Below, piece after piece: positions 8,803-46,900 of a stretch of 64,000 nt of DNA (position 1 is its first letter; each line of letters opens with the position of its first letter). The stretch is from Lineus longissimus. Taxonomy: Eukaryota; Nemertea; Pilidiophora; Heteronemertea; Lineidae. Where the stretch lies: the NCBI RefSeq assembly GCF_910592395.1, contig NC_088324.1:7964953-8028952 (forward strand). Reading direction: 5' to 3'. Both the position numbers and the translations under genes were made by a program. The notes under the pieces were generated by a model, which was not told the origin of the DNA, ran no database searches, and saw nothing but the letters and a program-made list of their open reading frames with translations.

Positions 8803-9924
8803 ATGGAAACCGTTGCCGAGGAAACCTCGGAACAGATGATGAGTGGCCCAGCAAAGCCAGAGGGCGTCGCAAAGAGGAAAACGAGTTTGACAAGTCTTAC
8901 AGAGCGCGATCCAATGGACGTCTATCTGCGCCCGCGTACCAGGCGTACGAGTCGGGAAGAACATGTTGATTTCAATGCAAGTCTTATTATGGGAAGTTTC
9001 GACACTGAGAGTCAGGACGACGAATATTTCGAAGAATCGACCGGAAGTGAAACCGGCGAACCGGATTCTCGTGCGCCGTTTACTAAAACTGTTATGAGTA
9101 ATGGAAAGGGCGTGGCCTGTCCACGCGAAGGTGCCAACTGTAAGGTGAAATTTGTACTCGTCGATCCCGTGTTAGCGTTAGACATTGTTGAGAACATCGC
9201 ATCGTTTCGGTTGGACCAGGAGACGGAATACCAGATCGGGCACGGTGTCACGTTCTTGTCGGAGGCGGTTGATCGCTGTCTATTGACCATGAAGCAACAG
9301 GAGATATGCGAGCTGCGCGTCAAGTATGACCCTGAAATGGAGCAGCACAACTTCAACCTGAATTTGCATATTGACGGGAAGAGTTCATTTACGTTCCTTC
9401 TAGAACTGAAGAGTTTCGAAGTCGTTCCGGCATTTTGGGAACTCAACCCGGAGAAGTTGTTTGAAAAAGCCAACAGCTTTAAGTCGAGGGGAACCGAGTT
9501 GTTTCAGAAGGAGAACATAGAGGGCGCATTTAAGATGTATAGCAAGTGTATGAAATTGTTGATTATGATGGGTCGCGAGAAGGAGTTAGACACAGCTTTA
9601 GCAATGAGTATGAGGTCGTTAAAAGTTCAGGTGTATCTGAATCTGACCGCTTGTCAAATGAAATGCGACAACTATCAAGCTGTCATCAAAAATTGTACCA
9701 AGGCTTTAGAAATTGATGAGAAAAATGTTAAGGGTTTATATCGCCGGGGCTGGGCCTACGGCCAAATCAACGACCTGGATAGTGCCAAAGCAGATCTTGC
9801 TCTCGCTATGCGCATTGATCCTTCGAGTAAGCCTGTGGCACGTGAATTGGAAAAAGTCAACCAGCGAATTAGTAAAGTTGAGAAAGAGATGGCGCGTGGT
9901 ATAAGAAAAATGTTCACGTCGTAA
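8803..9924 (+). CDS. FKBPL: FKBP-like TPR co-chaperone (FKBPL family), intronless
   Basis: FKBPL-type proteins bind HSP90 through TPRs and have lost peptidyl-prolyl isomerase activity; they stabilise client complexes. Seen: a 373-residue single-exon ORF in a strong start context. Residues 1-90 are polar and acidic. Residues 93-206 resemble an FKBP fold (KVKFVLVDP; GHGVTF; TMKQQEICELRV) without a recognisable isomerase active site. Three TPRs follow at about 222-255, 274-307 and 308-341, including YLNLTACQMKCDNY and KGLYRRGWAYG. The C-terminal tail ARGIRKMFTS closely resembles the RKMF-type end of vertebrate FKBPL (about 350 residues) and the calmodulin-binding tail of FKBP4/5. Codon use looks like a real gene, and the antisense ORF at 9012-9473 is a shadow. 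A divergent FKBP6 or FKBP5 relative is the alternative. Confidence 0.85.
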   Translation: METVAEETSEQMMSGPAKPEGVAKRKTSLTSLTERDPMDVYLRPRTRRTSREEHVDFNASLIMGSFDTESQDDEYFEESTGSETGEPDSRAPFTKTVMSNGKGVACPREGANCKVKFVLVDPVLALDIVENIASFRLDQETEYQIGHGVTFLSEAVDRCLLTMKQQEICELRVKYDPEMEQHNFNLNLHIDGKSSFTFLLELKSFEVVPAFWELNPEKLFEKANSFKSRGTELFQKENIEGAFKMYSKCMKLLIMMGREKELDTALAMSMRSLKVQVYLNLTACQMKCDNYQAVIKNCTKALEIDEKNVKGLYRRGWAYGQINDLDSAKADLALAMRIDPSSKPVARELEKVNQRISKVEKEMARGIRKMFTS

Positions 9925-12589: not shown

Positions 12590-12619
12590 TAAAATTAATG
12601 GAGGGTACAACAAACTACC

Positions 12620-13408
12620 AGTACTTGCAAGTAATGTCCCACAAAACTACAGTACAGTTGTAAAGTGTCCCAACTTTCAACATATTTATGTCCCAATCAA
12701 CCAGTACTTGCAAGTAATGTCCCACAAAACTGGAGTTGTAAAGTGACCCAACTTTCAACATATTTATGTCCCAATCAACCAGTACTTGCAAGTAATGTCC
12801 CACAAAACTGGAGTTGTAAAGTGTCCCAACTTTCAACATATTTATGTCCCAATCAACCAGTACTTGCAAGTAATGTCCCACAAAACTGGAGTTGTAAAGT
12901 GACCCAACTTTCAACATATTTATGTCCCAATCAACCAGTACTTGCAAGTAATGTCCCTCAAAACTGGAGTTGTAAAGTGACCCAACTTTCAACATATTTA
13001 TGTCCCAATCAACCAGTACTTGCAAGTAATGTTCCACAAAACTGGAGTTGTAAAGTGACCCAACTTTCAACATATTTATGTCCCAATCAACCAGTACTTG
13101 CAAGTAATGTCCCACAAAACTGGAGTTGTAAAGTGTCCCAACTTTCAACATATTTATGTCCCAATCAACCAGTACTTGCAAGTAATGTCCCACAAAACTG
13201 GAGTTGTAAAGTGACCCAACTTTCAACATATTTATGTCCCAATCAACCAGTACTTGCAAGTAATGTCCCACAAAACTGGAGTTGTAAAGTGACCCAACTT
13301 TCAACATATTTATGTCCCAATCAACCAGTACTTGCAAGTAATGTCCCACAAAACTGGAGTTGTAAAGTGTCCCAACTTTCAACATATTTATGTCCCAATC
13401 AACCAGTA
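12620..13408. repeat. 78-base minisatellite, open on both strands
   Basis: About ten copies of a 78-base unit containing CAACATATTTATGTCCCAAT, CAACCAGTACTTGCAAGTAA and AAACTGGAGTTGTAAAGTG. Because 78 is divisible by three and the unit lacks stops, both strands show a long repetitive ORF (26-residue unit). Copies differ by very few bases, so the array is young or homogenised. The first copy is diverged. No start context or splice support for a gene. Confidence 0.9.
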
Positions 13409-13559
13409 CATGATCATGATCAACTCAGAATCTCAAAACTTTTATCAAAACGTACTGTCCCGCATTGTGATGAGTTGTGTCCAAATATTTTATGACAATG
13501 GCCTTGACGCATCATATCCTACTGGGAATTTTCATGTTGACTTAAATTTTTCAGGCGCA

Positions 13560-20640: not shown

Positions 20641-21450
20641 TGAGTTCCCATTGAATGGTTTATCACCAGTATGAATCCATATCCCTCAGATGACCACGAG
20701 TTCCCATTGAATGGTTTATCACCAGTATGAATCCACATCCCTCAGATGACCACATTAACTTGAGTTCCCATTGAATGGTTTATCACCAGTATGAATCCAC
20801 ATCCCTCAGATGACCACATTAACTTGAGTTCCCATTGAATGGTTTATCACCAGTATGAATCCACATCCCTCAGATGACCACATTAATGTGAGTTCCCATT
20901 GAATGGTTTATCACCAGTATGAATCCACATCCCTCAGATGACCACATTAACTTGAGTTCCCATTGAATGGTTTATCACCAGTATGAATTCATATCCCTCA
21001 GATGACCACGAGTTCCAATTGAATGGTTTATCACCAGTATGAATCCATATCCCTCAGATGACCACGAGTTCCAATTGAATGGTTTATCACCAGTATGAAT
21101 CCATATCCCTCAGATGACCACGAGTTCCAATTGAATGGTTTATCACCAGTATGAATCCATATCCCTCAGATGACCACGAGTTCCAATTGAATGGTTTATC
21201 ACCAGTATGAATCCATATCCCTCAGATGACCACGAGTTCCAATTGAATGGTTTATCACCAGTATGAATCCATATCCCTCAGATGACCACAAGTTCCCATT
21301 GAATGGTTTATCACCAGTATGAATCCATATCCCTCAGATGACCACGAGTTCCCATTGAATGGTTTATCACCAGTATGAATCCATATCCCTCAGATGACCA
21401 CATTAACTTGAGTTCCCATTGAATGGTTTATCACTAGTATGAATCCACAG
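20640..21450 (-). repeat. Minisatellite derived from a C2H2 zinc-finger linker
   Basis: About 14 copies of a unit of 56 bases (63-64 with an added ATTAACTT block). The minus strand reads ATTCATACTGGTGATAAACC, that is IHTGDKPFNGNS or, in other copies, PFNWNS. HTGDKPF is the C2H2 zinc-finger linker. Normal fingers repeat every 84 bases; here the finger core is deleted and the frame is lost from unit to unit, so it cannot encode fingers. The related fragment at 6714-6850 is longer. Confidence 0.75.
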
Positions 21451-28900: not shown

Positions 28901-31900
28901 TTCACTGTTGTCTCCCTTTTGAGAAATCTGAGAACATCGATTTCTTCCTTTATATCTGGTGTCATTTTAGGCTCATCTTCTGTGCGACATGCGCCTGGTT
29001 TTGCTATGACGGGTCACATCTTAGCGAAAGTAATTCTTATAATAGATATATTATCATGTCTGATTTTGTCATCTTCTTTTTCTAGGGTCACTTGGCTACC
29101 TACAAAACCGTATCGGCAGTAGCAATGGTGGATTCGACAGTTCTGAGGTAAGGTCAAAACTACTGAAGTGATGTATATAGAGGGGTTGGCAATGTCTAGT
29201 GGTAAAGGTGTCGGACTGGTTTAAATTCCTGCTCCCTTATGAAGAATAGAGAGGAACACCGGCCATAGGACACTACCTCTGGGGCTCTGTGGCTTCAGAC
29301 CTGCTCCCTCATGAAGAATAGAGAGACATACCGGCCGTGGGACACCACCCTGACCACAAAGCTCTGGGGCTCTGTGGCTTCAGACCTGCTCCCTGATGAA
29401 GAATAGAGAGGAATACTGGCCATAGGACACCACCCTGACCACAAAGGTCTGGGGCTCTGTGGCTTTAGACCTGCTCCCTTATGAAGAATGGAGAGGAATA
29501 CTGGCCATAGGACACCACCCTGACCACAAAGCTCTGGGGCTCTGTGGCTTCAGACCTGCTCCCTAATGAAGAATGGAGAGGAATACTGGCCAAAGGACGG
29601 CACCCTGACCACAAAGCTCTGTGGTGGAACTCTCTAGGACAGCCGACTCCATGTGTCTCAAATATTCTGTACCCAGAAGAAGTAATTTTGAGTTGATATC
29701 TCGTGTTTCCCTTTCAGGTTACCTGCTGACGCCTTCATAAAAATCTTTGACAACTACCCGGAGAGTCTAGTCCGCGTGGTTCAGGTCATCATGGTGCGGC
29801 TTCAGAGGGTCACGTTCATGGCACTACACAACTATCTCGGTCTCAGTTCGGAGTTGATCAGAAGCGTGAGTAGGCCAACTTTGGGGTTCCGACCACAGGC
29901 CTCTTGGCTGCTCGCCAAGAATCTTATAACTAGGGAATGGGACGAGGCAAAGGACATTCTCAACCTGCCGCGACTGGTTTGACGGTATGAAATAAAAAAG
30001 TCTTAAACTAGACCACAGAGGCGCCAGATATTGTGCGGGTAACATTGCAGAGAAATCATGGGTAAATTTGGAAAATATCGTGGCTCATGCATACAGTGGA
30101 CTTCTTCTTCTTCATCAGCATTTGCTTTGCAATTGGAGGTATCATTCTCCATGGGAGTTATCCTCCTCCAGCGCGGGATGAGTGTTTTAAGGTGCCACTA
30201 CGTTTAGGTCCCAGTTGGATTCATTGGCCTAGTGATTCCATCTTCTGCCAGACAGAGTCTCCACGCATTCGGCAAGCTGCTCATGTTTCCCACTTAATAG
30301 GGTCTTTTGCTTGCCTTAGCTTATCATAGACACAAGATACAAGGTATCATTCGAAGGGCTGTGAAGAGCCAAGAATTTTAGTTCCTTATTGAAAACCACG
30401 CCTTCATCCAGAAATACAATCCTGGTTATCCCCATGATCTAACTGGGCCCCATTGCTTGGTAGGCGGTGAGCAGTGTAAACCAAGAGGGTATGAGACCCC
30501 TGTCCGGTGGACAAAATTTGGGCGTTGCAATCTCAACCCAGTTAACTTTTTGACGTTTTGCAGAGTAATCAAGTTGAGAGGTCTGCGAGTGTCAGTGGAG
30601 CCGGGCTCGGTCCAAGGATCGGCAAGGTGATGAAAGAAGCCAAGTCTAGTAGTAGTTCCGACGGAGACAGAGTCATACGGGTCGTGAATTATGACGAGGA
30701 GTCTGGTAGGTGGATAGAGTCTAGATGAACCTGTCAGGAGCAGGTTTGCTGCATCGGTGTGACTGGCTTAGGTCCCGGGATCAGCATGGTGATAAATGGC
30801 GCGTGTTACTGCTTGTGAAATATGGTGTGATTAATGCCTTTGCTACGAGTTGGCAGAAAAAAGTCCTGACCCATTCCCGCCCCAAGCCGCTTCACCACAA
30901 AACGAGACGAAGACTAAGACAACCGTCTTGTTTTTTGCTAAAACATTTCTTAACATCCATTTTCAGTTAGCAGCCAATCCGGTAGCGCGGAGGCGTCTAG
31001 ACCCATTACAATCCCCAGCCGTCTGACCACAAGACGGGGCTCAGACAGCAACAGCATAACAAGTAAGCAAAAAAACATTCGCCTTGTCGCATTGTTAATT
31101 TCTTTGGCAAGATGGACTTTAGTATGTGATTTTTTTTCAGTGAAATAGCTGAAGTTCTGTATTATTTTGCTTTGAAGATTTGGTTGCAGAGTTTATGTTG
31201 TTTTAGTGTCGGCCTGGTTCAAACATCATGGATGGTTAAATGACGGAGTCGGAAAGAAAAAAGCATCCTCCCTTAGCAGGCCTTTGATCATTCCTAAAAT
31301 GTGACCCGCTCTACCAAAACTAGGCGCTTGTCGCATCTGAACTTGACAGGTTGATACGGACTTGTTGTTCATTTCCCTATTGTAGACCTTTTGTGAAATG
31401 TGACCAAATCAGTTTGTAATAGATTTCACAAAAGGTCTACAATAGGGAAATGAACAACAAGTCCGTATCAACCTGTCGAGTTCAGATGCGACAAGCGCCT
31501 AGTTTTGGTAGAGCGAGTCACAAATGCATTCACACAATTTTGAGTGTATTTTTTTCTCCAGACGAAAGCCTGCTGTGAGAGTAGGAAAAAAACCTCTTCT
31601 GACCTTTCACTTGCTCCCCTGCTTGCTTTCATATCACTTTCCTGCTTGCTGCAGAAATTTGCCAAACCTCTGCTTTTGAAATCATAGAAAAGATAAACTT
31701 ACCGTCACAAAAATGGTGTCGATGCTTCTGTGAACTTAAAGTAACTCGTGGTGTACCGGTTTCCCAGAAGAAAGCTTTACTGGTACACGAGGCTATTCAT
31801 TATTCGAATTTCTATACTAACCTAATGAATTTCAGCTTCACCACGTAGGGGGCGTTACTTTCGTCGCCAATCGTATGTATCTGATGCCGTCATAGGTAAG

Positions 31901-34900
31901 CGGACGTCAGAATATTTTTTCTCAACAGAACAGTGTTTTCTGCACCTAATCGGCTGACTGTAAACTATAAAATTTGTTACCAGCAAAATGTTTGGAAAAA
32001 CAAATTTGTCAGACTTTTCCACCAATTGATGGATTTCTAATCATAAACTACAGTGGAACCTCTCTATCAAGGACACCCTTAGGACTGACCAGTGCTGTCC
32101 TAGAGAGGTGTCCCAATTATAGAGATAACTTTGAAAACAAAACCAGTGTCCTTGTCAGAGAGGGTGTCCTTAATAGAGAGGTGTCCGCTGACAGGTTCTA
32201 CTGTAATAGGTGGATAGTTTTGCGCATTTATTTTCAGGATTTGACTTCAAATTGTGAAAATAAATGCCTGTGATAATATCTGGATATCGCAGTTCACACA
32301 TAACCAGGGCAAATAATTAACAGTTACTGCCATAACTGTGTGGAGAACACTACACGGCTAGCTTAACGATTTTGTCTCCCGTACTACTAGATGTTGATTA
32401 TAACTGATCACTTTTGTCATCATATGTTCGTCATTTATTCATTCATCTTAGAAGTGTCAAAAATTTAAAAAACTGTTGAAAATTTGCTGGACTCTGTACA
32501 ATTTTCGTTCAGTTTTAAAAGGCCTACGTAGATTTTTTTTGGCTTTTAGTTTTGAGTTCCTATCTCTTGTGGTTACTGCTGCTATGATGTCCCCGATATC
32601 TTGATATTATGACACTGGCGATGACGTGATAAGCATCCTGCTATCAGTGTGACTAAAGGACTGTTCAGTATCGGGTACACCCATGTCTGACCCTGTGTGT
32701 GCTAAAAGAACAATGTGACTATCTACTATCAAAAGAGTTGAAACAAAATTGGAAAATGTGTCAAAGACTTTCAGGAAGTAAGGTTTTATTGCGCCAAGAT
32801 AGGAACAAAGATACTGCAGGGTAAACTGTCTGCTGCATGAAGCAGTTTTGCAGCCAATTTTGCTCCCACCACGATTATATCAACAATTTCTCCAAACTTC
32901 ATGCAAACTGTTGTGCATGTCCTGATGTGTCGTTTTAGATAGCTTGTGTTAATTTATGATGTGTGGCTTTAATGGCAATGTAGTAAATGGTGTCTGCTAG
33001 TAGAGTGCTATGCCACCATTCGCTTCTCAGGGTTTTTTCTTACGATTGAGTTGTCCAACCTTTGGTAGTGTAGACCACCGAATTTTCACCCTTCTTTAAT
33101 ATTTTAGAGATTCATGAAAATTTGTAGAGAAATTTTCACAGTTTCATCTTGGCAGATTATAAAATTTCTTTTGATTTTTCCACACTGAATATTTTTTTTG
33201 GTATTTTAAGTTTTACAAGGCGAGAAAACAAAAAAAACAGTTCCTATTTATTATTCCATCTCATCAAGTACTTGTGCTTTGAGTCCGCATTGATAACTCA
33301 TATTAACTCATATCGGTAACATTTATTACACAAGATAATGTTTAAAAACAGTCCCTAATTATTATTCCATCTCATCAAGTACTTGTGCTTTGAGATCACA
33401 TTGATAACTCATATTAACTCATATCGGTAACATTTATTACACAAGATAATGTTTAAAAACAGTCCCTAATTATTATTCCATCTCATCAAGTACTTGTGCT
33501 TTGAGCTCACATTGATAACACTTATTAAACTCATATCGGTAACTTTTATTTCACAAAGTAATGTTTTGATCGGTTATATTAATTCATACACATGCACATG
33601 GTAAATCGTCTTAAGTCATGAAGTCGTTTAGAATTTGTACGTAACTAGGGTTCATGCACTTGTGTTCTGTGCACAATGTTCTCAACAAATTTATAATTAC
33701 AATATGACTCTCAAATTTGCACAGAATTGTCTAACAATCCTTCATAATCTGGATCAAGCAACAGATAGATCCTCCATCTTGAAGTATGTCCTAGGAGGCA
33801 ATGCTGTGCCCATTTCGTGAAGATTTTCCAGTGTGGTGGGTCAAAATTCGAACTTCCAATTCTCGATTCAAGGTGTTGCACTGTCCGTTTTTGCGGAGAT
33901 TTGCCATTGTAGAGGATCCTAAATAGCAAGAAAAAGATAATTTTGGGGCTGTCGTGATTTTCGTGCTGTTAGTGATGTGCGGCGAGTTGATGTCACAGTG
34001 AGATCTGGGCAAATCTCCACCATTGTGAGGTGCTGGCAAACAAATTTCGGTGTAGGCCTTTATAGGGGAGTGAGGTACATGTAGGAGCCGAGGGCCTCCA
34101 GTTTGTAGACTCCAGGTTACTAAACAGGCCCATTAAGGGAACGAGGTCTGGTGTGACTTTGTAACAAAGATATTCCTCAGTACTGTGAGATAGTGGAGAC
34201 ACCTATTGACAACTTCGTGTTAGTTAATCTGGCCTACTGGTTCCTGCCTATAGTCTCCGTTTAACTTTAGTTTTTTACAGCAGCAAAATACCATACAGTA
34301 TATGCAAGTCAGTCACCATTTTCTCGTAGTGACTTTTTGTGGCGTCATTTATTTTTGCAGCACGACCTTCAAGACATTCGGATGAGGTCGATGGCGAGAC
34401 GGCGCCGACAGACTTCGAGGCAGCCCTGAGCCAAGCCAGGCTGACGACATTTGATGACCAAGGCGATCCACTTTCCATTGGCACTCCCCCAAGTCGACAG
34501 GTAAGTGCAATGGGTCGTGGTCTATGGAGGCCAGAAGTCCAATGCTAGCTACATGTAATCTCCGAAAGTTGAAGTCTATGTCGCAGCAGGCAACTATTGT
34601 GAGACATCGAGCCATTCAGTGTATCTGGAAAAATCAAGTCTACATCTGGCCAGACTCTACAAAAACCACGTTCATCCCTATGAATTGTAGAGCTCTTTTA
34701 AGTCCGTGAAGGTTCTACTAGTACATGTACTAGATATTCCTGTGGTTGGTACTGCCATAGTTGGTTTATTGCTGAATGTGATAACAAGTTTAGGGGAAGG
34801 CTGGTTCTGCTGGGAGTGATTTTACAAGGTTGGAATCTCTCGGACCTTACGCTGCTTTATGGAGAGGCGTCAATTTTGCTGATACGGCGAAATGAAGCTG

Positions 34901-37900
34901 ATTAACCCCTTCTGATATGTAACATCATTGTTTTACGTTACCCTCAATCAATCAAATCAAATTGTCATTTGTATAGCGCAAATGTCAAAGACAAAGAGTA
35001 CTGTTCAAGTGCGCCCTCCTATCTGTACAGTAGAACCTCTCTATTAAGGACACCCTCGGGACTGACAAGTGCTTTCCATAATAGAGAGGTGTCCTGATTA
35101 GAGAGATCAAATTGAATGGTAACAACCAACTTGGGACCAAAACTAGTGTCCTTGATAGAGAGGTTGTCCTTAATAGAGAGGTGTCCGCGAAGGGAGGTTC
35201 CACTGTACTTGGTAGTATTTTCTGTACAGTTATCTGAGCTCTTTCATGACTTAATGGGTCTGCGTCGCTCGTAGAAAAGGCTTGAAAGCGTCTTCCTATA
35301 ATTCCTGATGTCGGTTCCATTTGCAGACATTCCTGGAGTCCGATGTGAGCCCGACAAAATCTCGAACGGAGCGAAAACGAGTCAGCATCACGGAGGACGT
35401 CAGTTACATCGAGGACCAGAAACCGGAGCGCCCGGAAACCGACGAAGACATTATCCGGAAAGCAAAGTCTGACCTTCTAACCATACTGGACCTGCAGGTT
35501 TGTGATATTTCTGACGCGTTCCTGGCCCAATCACGGGGTGTCATTTGGTTTGAAGTCAGTGCAAGTCAGTGATATTTCAGGAGTTCGCCAGCCCCATCTG
35601 TGTTTAACAAATCATGAAGGGAGGTCCTAAATGTACTTACTTTTATCAATTTTAATACCCTTCCAGGATGCGAATATTTTGGACGACAAGCTCAAACTCC
35701 AGTCCTTCAGAGCAGGTGTGATTTTGACCAAGCAAGGGGATCAGGACGCCAGCCTCTACTTTGTGGTGACAGGTAACCTGCAGTGTGCTCAGCAGGTGGT
35801 CGGCCATCAGGAGAAAGAGGTAGGTTGGGTGTAATATTGACCAGGCAAGGGGATCAGGACGCCAGCCTCTACTTTGTGGTGACAGGTAACCTGCAGTGTG
35901 CTCAGCAGGTGGTCGGCCATCAGGAGAAAGAGGTAAGTTGGGCTTAATACTGACCAGGCAAGGGGATCAGGACGCCAGCCTCTACTTTGTGGTGACGGGT
36001 AACCTGCAGTGTGCTCAGCAGGTGGTCGGCCATCAGGAGAAAGAGGTAAGTTGGGTGTAATATTGACCAGGCAAGGGGATCAGGACGCCAGCCTCTACTT
36101 TGTGGTGACAGGTAACCTGCAGTGTGCTCAGCAGGTGGTCGGCCATCAGGAGAAAGAGGTAAGTTGGGTGTAATATTGACCAGGCAAGGGGATCAGGACG
36201 CCAGCCTCTACTTTGTGGTGACAGGTAACCTGCAGTGTGCTCAGCAGGTGGTCGGCCATCAGGAGAAAGAGGTAAGTTGGGTGTAATATTGACCAGGCAA
36301 GGGGATCAGGACGCCAGCCTCTACTTTGTGGTGACAGGTAACCTGCAGTGTGCTCAGCAGGTGGTCGGCCATCAGGAGAAAGAGGTAAGTTGGGTGTAAT
36401 AATGACCAGGCAAGGGGATCAGGACGCCAGCCTCTACTTTGTGGTGATGGGTAACCTGCAATGTGCTCAGCAGGTGGTCGGCCATCAGGAGAAAGAGGTA
36501 AGTTGGGTGTAATATTGACCAGGTACAGGGATTAGGGGGCCAGCCTCTACTTTGTGGTGACAGGTAACCTGCCGTGTGCTCAGCAGGTGGTCGGCCATCA
36601 GGAGAAAGAGGTAGGTTGGGTGTAATATTGACCAGGCAAGGGGATCAGGACGCCAGCCTCTACTTTGTGGTGACAGGTAACCTGCAGTGTGCTCAGCAGG
36701 TGGTCGGCCATCAGGAGAAAGAGGTAAGTTGGGCTTAATACTGACCAGGCAAGGGGATCAGGACGCCAGCCTCTACTTTGTGGTGACGGGTAACCTGCAG
36801 TGTGCTCAGCAGGTGGTCGGCCATCAGGAGAAAGAGGTAAGTTGGGTGTAATATTGACCAGGCAAGGGGATCAGGACGCCAGCCTCTACTTTGTGGTGAC
36901 AGGTAACCTGCAGTGTGCTCAGCAGGTGGTCGGCCATCAGGAGAAAGAGGTAAGTTGGGTGTAATATTGACCAGGCAAGGGGATCAGGACGCCAGCCTCT
37001 ACTTTGTGGTGACAGGTAACCTGCAGTGTGCTCAGCAGGTGGTCGGCCATCAGGAGAAAGAGGTAAGTTGGGTGTAATATTGACCAGGCAAGGGGATCAG
37101 GACGCCAGCCTCTACTTTGTGGTGACAGGTAACCTGCAGTGTGCTCAGCAGGTGGTCGGCCATCAGGAGAAAGAGGTAAGTTGGGTGTAATATTGACCAG
37201 GCAAGGGGATCAGGACGCCAGCCTCTACTTTGTGGTGATGGGTAACCTGCAATGTGCTCAGCAGGTGGTCGGCCATCAGGAGAAAGAGGTAAGTTGGGTG
37301 TAATATTGACCAGGTACAGGGATTAGGGGGCCAGCCTCTACTTTGTAGTGACAGGTAACCTGCCGTGTGCTCAGCAGGTGGTCGGCCATCAGGAGAAAGA
37401 GGTAAGTTGGGCTTAATATTGATCAGGCAAGGGGATCAGGATGCCAGCCTCTACTTTGTGGTGACAGGTAACCTGCCGTGTGCTCAGCAGGTGGTCGGCC
37501 ATCAGGAGAAAGAGGTAAGTTGGGCTTAATATTGACCAGGCAAGGGGATCAGGATGCCAGCCTCTACTTTGTGGTGACGGGTAATCTCCAGTGTGCTCAG
37601 CAGGTGGTCGGCCATCAGGAGAAAGAGGTAAGTTGGGCATAATATTGATCAGGCAAGGGGATCAGGACGCCAGCCTCTACTTTGTAGTGACAGGTAACCT
37701 CCAGTGTGCTCAGCAGGTGGTCGGCCATCAGGAGAAAGAGGTAGGTTGGGCTTAATATTGACCAGGCAAGGGGATCAGGACGCCAGCCTCTACTTTGTAG
37801 TGACAGGTAACCTGCCGTGTGCTCAGCAGGTGGTTGGCCATCAGGAGAAAGAGGTAAGTTGGGCATAATATTGATCAGGCAAGGGGATCAGGACGCCAGC

Positions 37901-40900
37901 CTCTACTTTGTAGTGACAGGTAACCTGCCGTGTGCTCAGCAGGTGGTCAGCCATCAGGAGAAAGAGGTAGGTTGGGCTTAATATTGACCAGGCAAGGGGA
38001 TCAGGACGCCAGCCTCTACTTAGTGGTGACAGGTAACCTGCCGTGTACTCAGCAGGTGGTCGGCCATCAGGAGAAAGAGGTGAGTTTGGCTTAATATTGA
38101 CCAGGCAAGGGGATCAGGATGCTAGCCTCTACTTTGTAGTGACAGGTAACGTGCAGTGTGCTCAGCAGGTGGTCGGCCATCAGGAGAAAGAGGTAAGTTG
38201 GGCTTAATATTGACCAGGCAAGGGGATCAGGATGCGAGCCTATACCTTGTAGTGACAGGTAACCTCCAGTGTGCTCAGCAGGTGGTCGGCCATCAGGAGA
38301 AAGAGGTAGGTTTCGAAGATGTGAAGAACTGATATGGAATATTCAGGAGTAGAGTGAATATTTTGTAGTTGGGTATCGCTCCTTCTAGCCCAGGCTAGAG
38401 GAAATTCCCTTTAGCTTAGTCCGTAGAGTGATGGCCAGAGGTCTTGGGTTCAATTCACTGTCAGACCTTGTTGTTTTACCTCTGTTACACGATAATGGGT
38501 GGTGTAGTACTGTTAAGGCAAGTCAGACTCCAAGTGCAACAGTAAACCGCTGACGTGAAATTGGATTTCGATGGCCTCTTTCTATTCCAGATCTCGCTTT
38601 TCTTGGCGACCCCTGGTGAGCTGGTCGGAGGTCTTGCTGTCCTGACTGGTGAGCCCTCATTCTTCACAATCCGGTCCAAAACGGAGTCTAAGTGTGTAGT
38701 CATCACTAAAAAAGACTTCTATAGGTGAGTCGGCTGTCAATTTTACCCCAAACATACGAAAATGTTTTTAAAATCTGAAGCGGTTCATCTGCTTCATAAA
38801 GATCTTGTTGACGTGTGCACAGGCTCAAACTATCGAATTCCCGAAACAAAACTTGGATGATATTAGCGACATTGAATGTGATGATAGAGAAGACCAATAT
38901 GGACAATTTAGACAACAACCAACAAGGTCTTACCTTACCCTTACACAAATATAGACTTACCCTGGGCATTGAATGCAATGTAAGCAACACGAATATAGAC
39001 TTACCCTGGCCATTGAATGCAATGTAAGCAACACGAATATAGACTTACCCTGGCCATTGAATGCAATGTAAGCAACACAAATATAAACTCACCCTGGGCA
39101 TTGAATGCAATGTAAGGAACATGAATATAGACTCACCCTGGGCATTGAATTCAATGTAAGCAACACGAATATAAACTCACCCTGGGCATTGAATGCAATG
39201 TAAGGAACACGAATATAAACTCACCCTGGGCATTGAATGCAATGTAAGCAACACGAATATAAACTCACCCTGGGCATTGAATGCAATGTAAGCAACACGA
39301 ATATAAACTCACCCTGGGCATTGAATGCAATGTAAGCAACACGAATATAGACTCACCCTGGGCATTGAATGCAATGTAAGCAACACGAATATAGACTCAC
39401 CCTGGGCATTGAATGCAATGTAAGCAACACGAATATAGACTTACCCTGGCCATTGAATGCAATGTAAGCAACACGAATATAGACTCACCCTGGCCAGTGA
39501 CTTGCAGCCTTTCAGCATAACTTACATGAATTGTGTCCTTACCTTCAGCATAATACGCGTCCAACCCAAGGTTGTCCTGAACACCTCTCATACGATTGTT
39601 AATCGGATGTCCCCGTTCGTGCGTCAGATTGATTTTGCCTTGGACTGGATGCAAATCGAAGCAGGAAGACCCCTGTACAGGTAAGGAGGCTACGACTGGC
39701 ATGGCCACGCGATGGTGACAGTGTGCTTTATAAGTGTTGCTGGCTTAACGAATGAAATTTCAGAGCCTCATAATCGAGTGATTTTAATCTTGGTCTTAAA
39801 GGACATCTGGCTAACACGCAATGAATAGAGGTATAGAAGAACCCAGGATTGTATTTCTGGAAGAAGCGGCGTGCGAACTCAAATTCCTGGCACAGTCATT
39901 CGAATGAGGTGTAAAACTGAAGTTCCCTGCATCTGTTGTCTATGCCAGGGCAAGCAGAAGACCCCACCTAGTGAGAAACATGAGTAGCCTGCGTGGACTC
40001 TACCTCTGGCTATAGACGGCGTCACTAGGTCAATAAACCCAATTGGTGCCTAACTGTAGTGGCAAACGCTGAAGGAGACGAAGACAGTTTGTACAGTATA
40101 AAAGCGCTATATAAGAACTTACATCTTTTTCGTAATGAAAATCCAAGATTTGTCCTACGAGTTATAAAGTACACGTGTCTTTTTAACTTCAAGACAAGGT
40201 GATGTATCTGTACACTTGACACGTGTCTTTTTAACTTCCAGACAAGGTGATGTGTCTGACTGCATCTACATCATCTTGAACGGACGGTTGAGGAATATCG
40301 TGAAGCGGTCCGACGGCAAGAAGGAACTAGTCGGAGAGTACGGTCGAGGCGAACTAATCGGTATTGTCGAGGTGCTTACACAGACGGAGAGAGCGACGAC
40401 TGTGCTAGCTGTCAGGTATGTAAAACTCGGGTAAAATTCGGTCAAAACTTCTCAGCATGATCAAGTGTAAACACCCCCAGGTTGCGACAAAACTTGTCCG
40501 TCTGCTTGGGAAGAGAATTCAAGGGACTTTACAAGAGACCATACTGGCAACCATTACAACTTGTTTACATAATATTGTGAGTGTTTTTGTCAGTTCAGAT
40601 GCGTGATGAACCTCCTATCTCTTTCGCAGGGACACCGAGCTGGCGAAGATTCCTTCGGAACTCCTAAACATGATAAAACACAAATACCCCCAGGTTGTGA
40701 CACGCCTCATCCATCTGCTGGGGAAGAGAATTCTTGGGACATTGCAAGAGAACAATAGATTACCCTTAAGAGGTAGGTACTAAAAACCTTGAATTTTTGA
40801 GGAAATACAAAAACAATTGTTTTTAAAAGATATTGGATAGGTCTATTGTATTTTTGTGGCAAGGTTGGGGTGGCGGGGACGCTAAGTGTGTGATGAACTG

Positions 40901-43900: not shown

Positions 43901-46900
43901 AGTTTCATGTATGTAGCTTTATTCAAAATATATTTTTCATACAGATGAAAAACGGTGAAATTGGTCAATTCTCTGGCCCGCGGCGTCTTATATAAGAAAA
44001 GCCTCTGGCAGGGAAGGTGTTAAGTTCTGAAAAATGAAGCCATTTGTTCAAAATGGCCGAACCAGATATATCTTTTTTTGCGGTGAAACTCTTCAAATGC
44101 CATTTTAGTGATGTGATGTGTCTCATCAAGAACTTCGGAAAATCTTTTGACTGAAACCTGATAGTTGAGGATATATTTCTGGTGTTTGGACATTTCTAAT
44201 ACTGCTGAACTTCAGGGGTTGTATTTTACATGTAGTTGGATGTAGAGTTTATCTCCTTTAAATATAGGGCCCAAAATGTATATGAGAAAATGTGCCCTTC
44301 TGCATAGAAGAGGAAATATCATGTACAGCCCAATGTACAGAGCCAGCATGTACATGATAGTTCCTCTTCTGTTTAATAGGTGGCTCCCCTAGTATTCAGA
44401 GGTCATTTTCTTGTATATCTTGTTCTTTTAAGTTGAGGCAAAGGTAGCATCTACTGTCAAATTACTTTGGTAATGATATTTAGCTGCTTTTAAATCCCCT
44501 CTTCTTTGAAAAGTTTTATCTTTACAGAAGGGTTTTAGTACGCTTCCAGTATCAGTTTAATAAAAAAAACACCAAATCGTTCTGGGCATTTTCTTTTTGC
44601 AACTAACGTAGATTTGCACAAATAACTCAGATTTGCACAAATAAAAATTGCAAAAAAAAGATTTTTTGGTTGGAAAAACTGAAAGAAATTTGGTCATCAA
44701 CAAAATAAAAATCACCACTTGGGCAGGGCGGAAAAGTCTTAGTGGAATCGGGCCTTTATTCATGTACACGACAAAATAACCACTCTTGAACAGAGCATAG
44801 TTTATGTTGCGGAAAAGTCTTAGTAGAATCGGGCCTTTATTCACGTGAAGGTCTAATTGCCTGGTTCCTTTTCAGCTTTGTAAACAGCAGCATGTGCATG
44901 TGTACTAAAGCGCCCTCTGTAAAAAGCTTAGGTAGTCGCCGTGATCAGTAACCCGAACCACTGAACACCGCCGCAGGATCCGTTTATGATACTCGCTGAA
45001 ACTCCTTCGTCTCGAACCATAATTACTGGTTTACACCGCTGAAATTAACACCGTCACAAGATCCATCTGTGGTGTGCTCACTGTTTGTTATTTCTTTGAT
45101 GTGTGTGGACTTGTCACCTGGCCTAACAAAGGAGTTGCTCGAGACTGTGTCGAGATTTCAGTTTCCAAATTCTGATTGTAATTTCTGTCAAGGTCACCCA
45201 AGCACATGGCTTTTATGATCCACGTCGGGAGTGACCTGTCTGTGAAAAAAAAATCCATTGTTTTGGCTTTTATGATCCACGTCGAGAGTGACCTGTCTGT
45301 GAAAAAAATAATCCATTGATTTGCCTTTCAAAGACGACTTCTCACGGAGAATGATTTACGCATGCCTTGGAAATTTTCGTAATCGAGTTGGTTCGAAAGT
45401 GCTAAGCAAAGGGCTTTCCTCTCAGTGCCAATTAGACAATTGATTTTGATATCATTTTCTAATATCTATTCAGGTCCAACGCTGAGACTAACAAGTGAGA
45501 TTATTCAGAAGAGACTGGGGCCAGCTGCTCTAGAAAAGTACGTTTTTCCCAGTTTGCGGTATTCGGTATTGTTCATGAAAGTAGACTATGTTCTGCACTG
45601 CTGTCAGAATTTAATGGTGTTGATGCATCAGAGTAGAAATTTTTCTGTGTCATGTTTGCCCCAAACTGATTCAACAGGGTGTGTATTTCAATTTGAGTAA
45701 GTTGCGTTTTTTTCTCAATGTTTTTCCCAGCCTCCAACTTTTCAACTTTTGTTTTTTTTCTTCCCAGTGTGAACGAATACCGCCTATCAAGTTGGCTCGG
45801 CCAGCAGGAGGATCTTCACAGGATGGTGCTGTATCAGTGTGATATGAAGATGACCGCTTGGACCCAGCAGTGTATACGCCAGGCTGATTGCATCCTGATC
45901 GTGGGCCGGGCAGACGGGGACCACTCAGTTGGAAATGTAAGTGTAGCTAGTGCTGTATCAGTGTGATATGAAGATGACCGCTTGGACCCAGCAGTGTATA
46001 CGCCAGGCTGATTGCATCCTGATCGTGGGCCGGGCAGACGGGGACCACTCAGTTGGAAATGTAAGTGTAGCTAGTGCTGTATCAATGTGATATGAAGATG
46101 ACCGCTTGGACCCAGCAGTGTATACGCCAGGCTGATTGCATCCTGATCGTGGGCCGGGCAGACGGGGACCACTCAGTTGGAAATGTAAGTGTAGCTCGTG
46201 CTGTATCAGTGTGATATGAAGATGACCGCTTGGACCCAGCAGTGTATACGCCAGGCTGATTGCATCCTGATCGTGGGCCGGGCAGACGGGGACCACCTGA
46301 TCGTGGGCCGGGCAGACGGGGACCACTCAGTTGGAAATGTAAGTGTAGTTAGTGCTGTATCAGTGTGATATGAAGATGACCGCTTGGACCCAGCAGTGTA
46401 TACGCCAGGCTGATTGCATCCTGATCGTGGGCCGGGCAGACGGGGATCACTCAGTTGGAAATGTAAGTGTAGCTAGTGCTGTATCAATGTGATATGAAGA
46501 TGACCGCTTGGACCCAGCAGTTTATACGCCAGGCTGATTGCATCCTGATCGTGAGCCGGGCAGATGGGGACCACTCGGTTGGAAATGTAAGTGTAGCTAG
46601 TGCTGTATCAGTGTGATATGAAGATGACAGCTTGGACCCAGCAGTGTATACGCCAGGCTGATTGCATCCTGATCGTGGGCCGGGCAGACGGGGATCACTC
46701 AGTTGGAAATGTAAGTGTAGCTAGTGCTGTATCAGTGTGATATGAAGATGATGGCTTGGACCCAGCAGTGTATACGCCAGGCTGATTGCATCCTGATCGT
46801 GGGCCGGGCAGATGGGGACCACTCGGGCTGTTGGAGTGGCACAGTGGAAACATCAGCACCTGTCACCTCTGAGGTCCCCGGTTCGATTCCTGGTCGGTCC

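Follow-up and report, generated by a model that had tools for sequence, protein, structure and literature searches.

The stretch of DNA analyzed here (the window, 64,000 nucleotides of the Lineus longissimus genome) contains a gene of the NTE (PNPLA6/7) family, in which cNMP-binding, NTE P-loop and patatin domains occur together. The identity proposed from the sequence alone was confirmed by the Pfam matches (NTE_Ploop, 2.1e-19; Patatin, 2.6e-9; cNMP_binding, 9.2e-10 in exon 1) and by the frame that remains open across 17 joined exons. Twenty exons were located between 28399 and 51880, some of them from open frames and splice signals and the remaining ones by tblastn with a stretch of human PNPLA6 as the query; all exon boundaries are those predicted from the sequence. 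Joined together, exons 4–20 (17 of the 20) give an uninterrupted frame of 875 aa. The exon numbers used below count the located exons, with a gap between 3 and 4 and starting and ending inside the gene, and are thus provisional; the array exon, numbered 13 in the sequence-only reading, is exon 6 in this series. Elsewhere in the window, an intronless frame at 8803–9921 with FKBP_N_2 and TPR matches would encode an FKBP-like protein.

The features of the NTE gene considered in this work, all on the + strand, are the following:

35667..35819, +: NTE exon 6, 153 nt, phase 0 at both ends; in frame with its neighbours, weak cNMP_binding match
35714..38312, +: 23-copy array (Tandem Repeats Finder, TRF, and alignment of the 23 units); unit of about 106 exon-end and 7 intron bases
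35820..35825, +: donor 1, GTAGGT, the sole donor among the 23 with an open frame downstream
35827..36617, +: copies 2–8, first 791-bp block, with 3 mismatches to 36618–37408 over its 791 bases
35909..35932, +: 24-nt segment of copy 2, from the in-unit AG to donor 2, candidate in-frame microexon VVGHQEKE
36618..37408, +: copies 9–15, second 791-bp block, from comparison with the first
37409..38312, +: copies 16–23, more diverged (5–9 differences from the consensus unit), donors kept
38591..38724, +: NTE exon 7, the next after the array exon in the located set
40171..40258, +: acceptor-side two-copy duplication at exon 9 (40242–40415), 48-bp offset, 35/40 matches at −48
45768..45936, +: NTE exon 13, 169 nt, in the NTE P-loop domain (Pfam NTE_Ploop)
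45826..46827, +: second donor array, 124-bp unit in 8 copies (TRF and alignment); 111 exon and 13 intron bases

Structure and history of the donor arrays

The first array was reported by TRF as a 113-bp unit in 23.0 copies at 35715–38312, with 95% matches, 0% indels and a score of 4594. A pattern search for GAGAAAGAG|GT returned 23 sites, and the spacing was 113 in 22 of the 22 intervals. Hence, the claim of the sequence-only reading that the unit is repeated 23 times without any change in length was borne out, while the exonic part of the unit, described there as about 95 bases, had to be corrected to about 106. Copy 1 corresponds to the last ~106 bases of exon 6, whose own cNMP_binding match (2.5e-4) is weaker than the curated cut-off of Pfam, and the intronic part that follows is GTAAGTT or a variant of it. 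A good GT donor is present in all of the copies, as had been stated: 17 carry GTAAGT, five GTAGGT (copies 1, 8, 18, 20, and 23) and one GTGAGT (copy 21). Donor 1 was not the strongest of them. Its calculated duplex energy with U1 was −10.4, compared with −10.7 for 17 donors and −10.8 for one donor, and being no better than that of other donors it did not single out donor 1 by strength.

The same gene carries two other duplications at exon borders. Copy 1 of the second array is formed by the last 111 bases of exon 13, and the donor AAT|GTAAGT is present in seven of its eight copies, since copy 8 stops short of the donor; copy 4 contains an internal 30-bp duplication. At exon 9 the duplication affects the acceptor, AAG in the upstream copy and CAG in the real one, and splicing to the former would lengthen the protein by 16 residues, in frame and with no stop. 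In addition, the intron directly upstream of exon 10 holds, at 40433–40541, a degenerate copy of that exon (75% over 109 bases), perhaps an old duplication.

A border-specific origin of these arrays was considered and rejected. Stretches of 40 bases at the borders of the 20 located exons were scored as locally copied when at least 30 matches were found within 3 kb. This was the case at three of the 40 borders, compared with 334 of 1250 positions in 27000–52000, 307 of 1598 over the window as a whole and 315 of 947 intronic positions (151 of 779 outside the three border arrays), so that 19–33% of the sampled positions lie in locally duplicated sequence. Three or fewer copied borders would be expected with a binomial probability of 0.002 at the local rate and of 0.04 at that of the window, and Fisher's test against the window gave 0.07; these values are rough because neighbouring positions inside one array are not independent. 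It can safely be stated that exon borders are not enriched for local duplication.

The copies of the first array are not equally diverged. The 3 differences in 791 bp between copies 2–8 and copies 9–15 indicated that one block is present twice, and a single sequence is shared by eight of the 23 units. At unit columns 20–105 copy 1 is the same as these eight; it departs from them at four bases close to where the unit starts and at +4 of the donor. The simplest reading would be growth of the array by unequal exchange next to the coding copy, and the near-identical blocks suggest a recent change in length. Since copies 2–15 are largely a recent block duplication, no special maintenance is required to explain why all 23 donors are intact; they probably mirror recent amplification in the main, and no sign of a dedicated mechanism was apparent in the sequence.

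The absence of indels was likewise not supported as a mark of constraint, because other arrays of the window also show 0% indels by TRF: 29277–29621 (85 bp, 4.1 copies), 33233–33566 (111 bp, 3.0 copies) and 38943–39500 (44 bp, 12.7 copies). Tandem repeats outside the NTE gene include a 78-bp array at 12617–13409 (10.1 copies, 97% matches, 0% indels), whose unit is a multiple of three and which has one frame open on each strand. Another, at 20642–21447 (56 bp, 13.7 copies), has a minus-strand unit that, by our own reading, resembles a worn C2H2 zinc-finger linker HTGDKPF.

Within the unit of the first array, 36 variant states were found in 31 columns. The exonic variants comprised 11 synonymous, 14 nonsynonymous and two stops, and copies 8 and 15 have an in-frame stop in their exonic part. 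The synonymous share did not exceed the neutral expectation (0.28, P 0.20) and coding constraint on copies 2–23 was thus not supported. The exon end and donor varied less than the remaining columns (4/37 vs. 27/76; Fisher 0.007, for a cut set after looking, with permutation scans giving 0.022 and 0.047). In the second array this difference was absent (3/37 columns on the donor side vs. 6/87 in the rest), and donor-side conservation was rejected as a general feature. The lower variability in the first array is accordingly a weak signal.

Predicted choice of the first donor and competing explanations

Read-through past donor 1 meets TAA at 35832 as its fifth codon, a stop that is retained whichever of donors 2–23 is used. 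The earlier statement that only the first donor gives an open frame, with TAA within five codons, was therefore correct, and the frames of the second array follow the same scheme, open from donor 1 and closed from donors 2–7. That the first donor must be chosen, as had been argued, is what the predicted reading frames would require. The puzzle is nevertheless smaller than claimed, given the recent origin of the copies and because proximity across the exon already predicts donor 1, as judged from the excerpts of PMC9225289.

The array is probably a minisatellite of the type published as mirages, carried neutrally in the intron and tolerated through exon definition. It would have begun when the exon end, the donor and the first intron bases were duplicated locally in tandem, and unequal exchange, including the recent duplication of a seven-unit block, would have enlarged it while it sat neutrally inside the intron. 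The spliceosome would define the exon by matching its acceptor with the donor that lies closest on the other side of the exon, so that donor 1 (153-nt exon) would outcompete donor 2 (266 nt) and the rest, be the donor used in the RNA, and make the array tolerable. Mis-spliced products, with a stop within five codons past donor 1, would be expected to undergo nonsense-mediated decay.

The splicing data in the excerpts of PMC9225289 are consistent with this order of preference. When two identical strong donors were placed 52 nt apart in minigenes, splicing took place only at the upstream one; among human events matched for strength, the preference for the upstream donor was greater where a short intron lay before the exon and a long one after it. 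The introns flanking the two array exons have this arrangement: those directly upstream (35498–35666 and 45538–45767) measure 169 and 230 nt, and those downstream 2771 and 1374 nt. The array exons follow two of only three introns of at most 250 nt among the 18 measured (hypergeometric 0.02, a post hoc value with n = 2 and a cut of our own choosing). If the 22 extra units were absent, the intron after the first array exon would measure only 285 nt, which raises the idea, not a result, that growth of the array would itself shift the exon towards exon definition.

Several observations weigh against exon definition or limit it. In the unfiltered human events of PMC9225289 the downstream donor was favoured in ~60% in all four architecture classes, and the upstream preference emerged only after strength matching; larger exons were skipped when donors were weakened. 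These competition data are human, and the preference may not be that of the present host. Donor 23 lies 285 nt from the next exon, so a rule of intron definition would favour it instead of donor 1. The exon-9 duplication, on the acceptor side, counts against the account, and the excerpts describe a weaker effect of exon definition on that side. The lower variability of the exon end and donor in the first array is not predicted by strict neutrality. Recursive splicing through the AG|GT at each donor was set aside, since the bases ahead of it are, by reading, purine-rich.

An assembly artefact in all or part of the copy number, such as a 791-bp block doubled or two haplotypes merged, is unlikely, though less so than the other alternatives. 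It would account for the near identity of the two blocks (just 3/791 bases), and the excerpts of PMC3087553 mention one globin mirage that was aberrantly assembled in a genome draft. Copies 16–23, however, are distinct both among themselves and from the other copies (5–9 positions), so that a many-copy array would be real even if one block were false, and similar arrays occur elsewhere in the NTE gene. A functional role that maintains the array as a store of decoy or regulatory donors, with U1 sites that modulate NTE splicing, prevent premature polyadenylation or drive a regulated switch to unproductive splicing, was judged very unlikely. The 23 intact donors, the low variability of the exon end and donor (permutation values as given above) and the second donor array in the gene would fit such a store. 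Yet most copies are recent and conservation is thus cheap, the 9-base donor holds 2 of the 36 variant states, near the share expected from its length, the second array lacks donor-side conservation, and borders carry fewer arrays than introns (3/40 vs. the intronic positions).

The units could also be read as 24-nt microexons, so that NTE isoforms would differ in how many VVGHQEKE octapeptides the second cNMP-binding domain contains. The earlier claim that no copy after the first has an acceptor stands for the native acceptor, but each unit does contain a weak acceptor-like TGTGCTCAGCAG|GT or a one-base variant, with its AG 24 nt upstream of the donor. Splicing from donor 1 to the in-unit acceptor and then from donor 2 would remove an 89-nt intron and include a 24-nt exon, adding eight residues in frame in a phase-0 context. 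The segment is found in each copy, with no stop in any; the 24-mer is common to 21 of the 23 and the remaining two differ by one base. Variation in the unit is lowest across the AG, the segment and the donor, the stretch that a microexon or decoy role would need. On a matrix built from the 20 acceptors of the NTE gene, the in-unit sites scored 4.2–7.3 bits, overlapping the weakest real acceptors but at the low end of their range (4.3–12.2 when each was left out in turn), and 6% of 1440 other AGs reached the weakest real score. The polypyrimidine tract is virtually absent. Since the same site lies within the real exon in copy 1, coding sequence would explain it, and nothing in the units suggests that it was shaped for splicing. 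Microexon use is hence extremely unlikely. Equally slight is the chance that the copy number of the minisatellite sets the NTE isoform mix, with the 23 units serving as a stock of decoy donors or in-frame 24-nt microexons that can expand. Tolerance through exon definition thus remains the preferred explanation.

Relation to published mirages and significance

The comparison with amphioxus arrays, which the sequence-only reading had drawn, proved apt in form. Mirages have been published from amphioxus globins and Adh3 (PMC3087553), as well as from PGBD5 and, by citation there, TnC (PMC3902484); both papers are cited here from excerpts. As in these, the NTE arrays span an exon–intron boundary and copy the splice signal (23/23 donors in the first array, 7/8 copies in the second). 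In PMC3087553, the Adh3 data and RT-PCR of globins suggest that regular splicing is undisturbed by mirages. The globin mirages BflGb6 (acceptor side) and BflGb9 (donor side) resemble the NTE array in their boundary-spanning copies and many AG or GT sites, and concerted evolution inside and divergent edges are a further likeness; regular splicing is reported for them. Their units are longer (150–160 vs. 113 bp), two BflGb6 haplotypes hold six and three copies against 23, and the NTE gene differs from both in combining two donor arrays and an acceptor duplication. The Adh3 mirage (Canestro et al., 2002, via PMC3087553) also spans a boundary, with splicing reported as undisturbed; its units are of 10–72 bp vs. 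113 bp, and somatic length instability is reported for it. In lancelet PGBD5, repeats of 60 and 108 bp overlap splice sites like the NTE arrays, and the first 108-bp copy, close in length to the 113 and 124 bp found here, adjoins a 5′ splice site. Depending on the assembly, two or seven and three or six copies are present there, and in one gene model the repeat copies are read as an extra exon (PMC3902484).

The 23 NTE copies exceed the mirage copy numbers given for the globins and PGBD5 in these excerpts, which reach seven. The NTE array was not found in print in a literature search run without NTE or PNPLA6 as a term, and it is probably a new, large example of the published mirage kind. Earthworm metallothionein introns with minisatellites (excerpts of PMC12783039) were dismissed as a parallel, being intronic arrays with exon-4 duplications, a different thing. 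Nothing further on the array appeared in excerpts of papers on arrestin (PMC5501109) and huntingtin (PMC2206037) or in a PDB search, which returned cAMP-binding proteins only.

The array offers a natural splice-site competition in which 23 near-equal donors, with equal spacing and equal upstream exon sequence, lie in one intron and the reading frame reveals any wrong choice. The two rules of proximity are opposed cleanly, with proximity across the exon predicting donor 1 and proximity across the intron predicting donor 23. A filter on the survival of arrays is also suggested, since a duplication over a donor or acceptor would be silent if the outermost site is used, whereas one within an exon would not.
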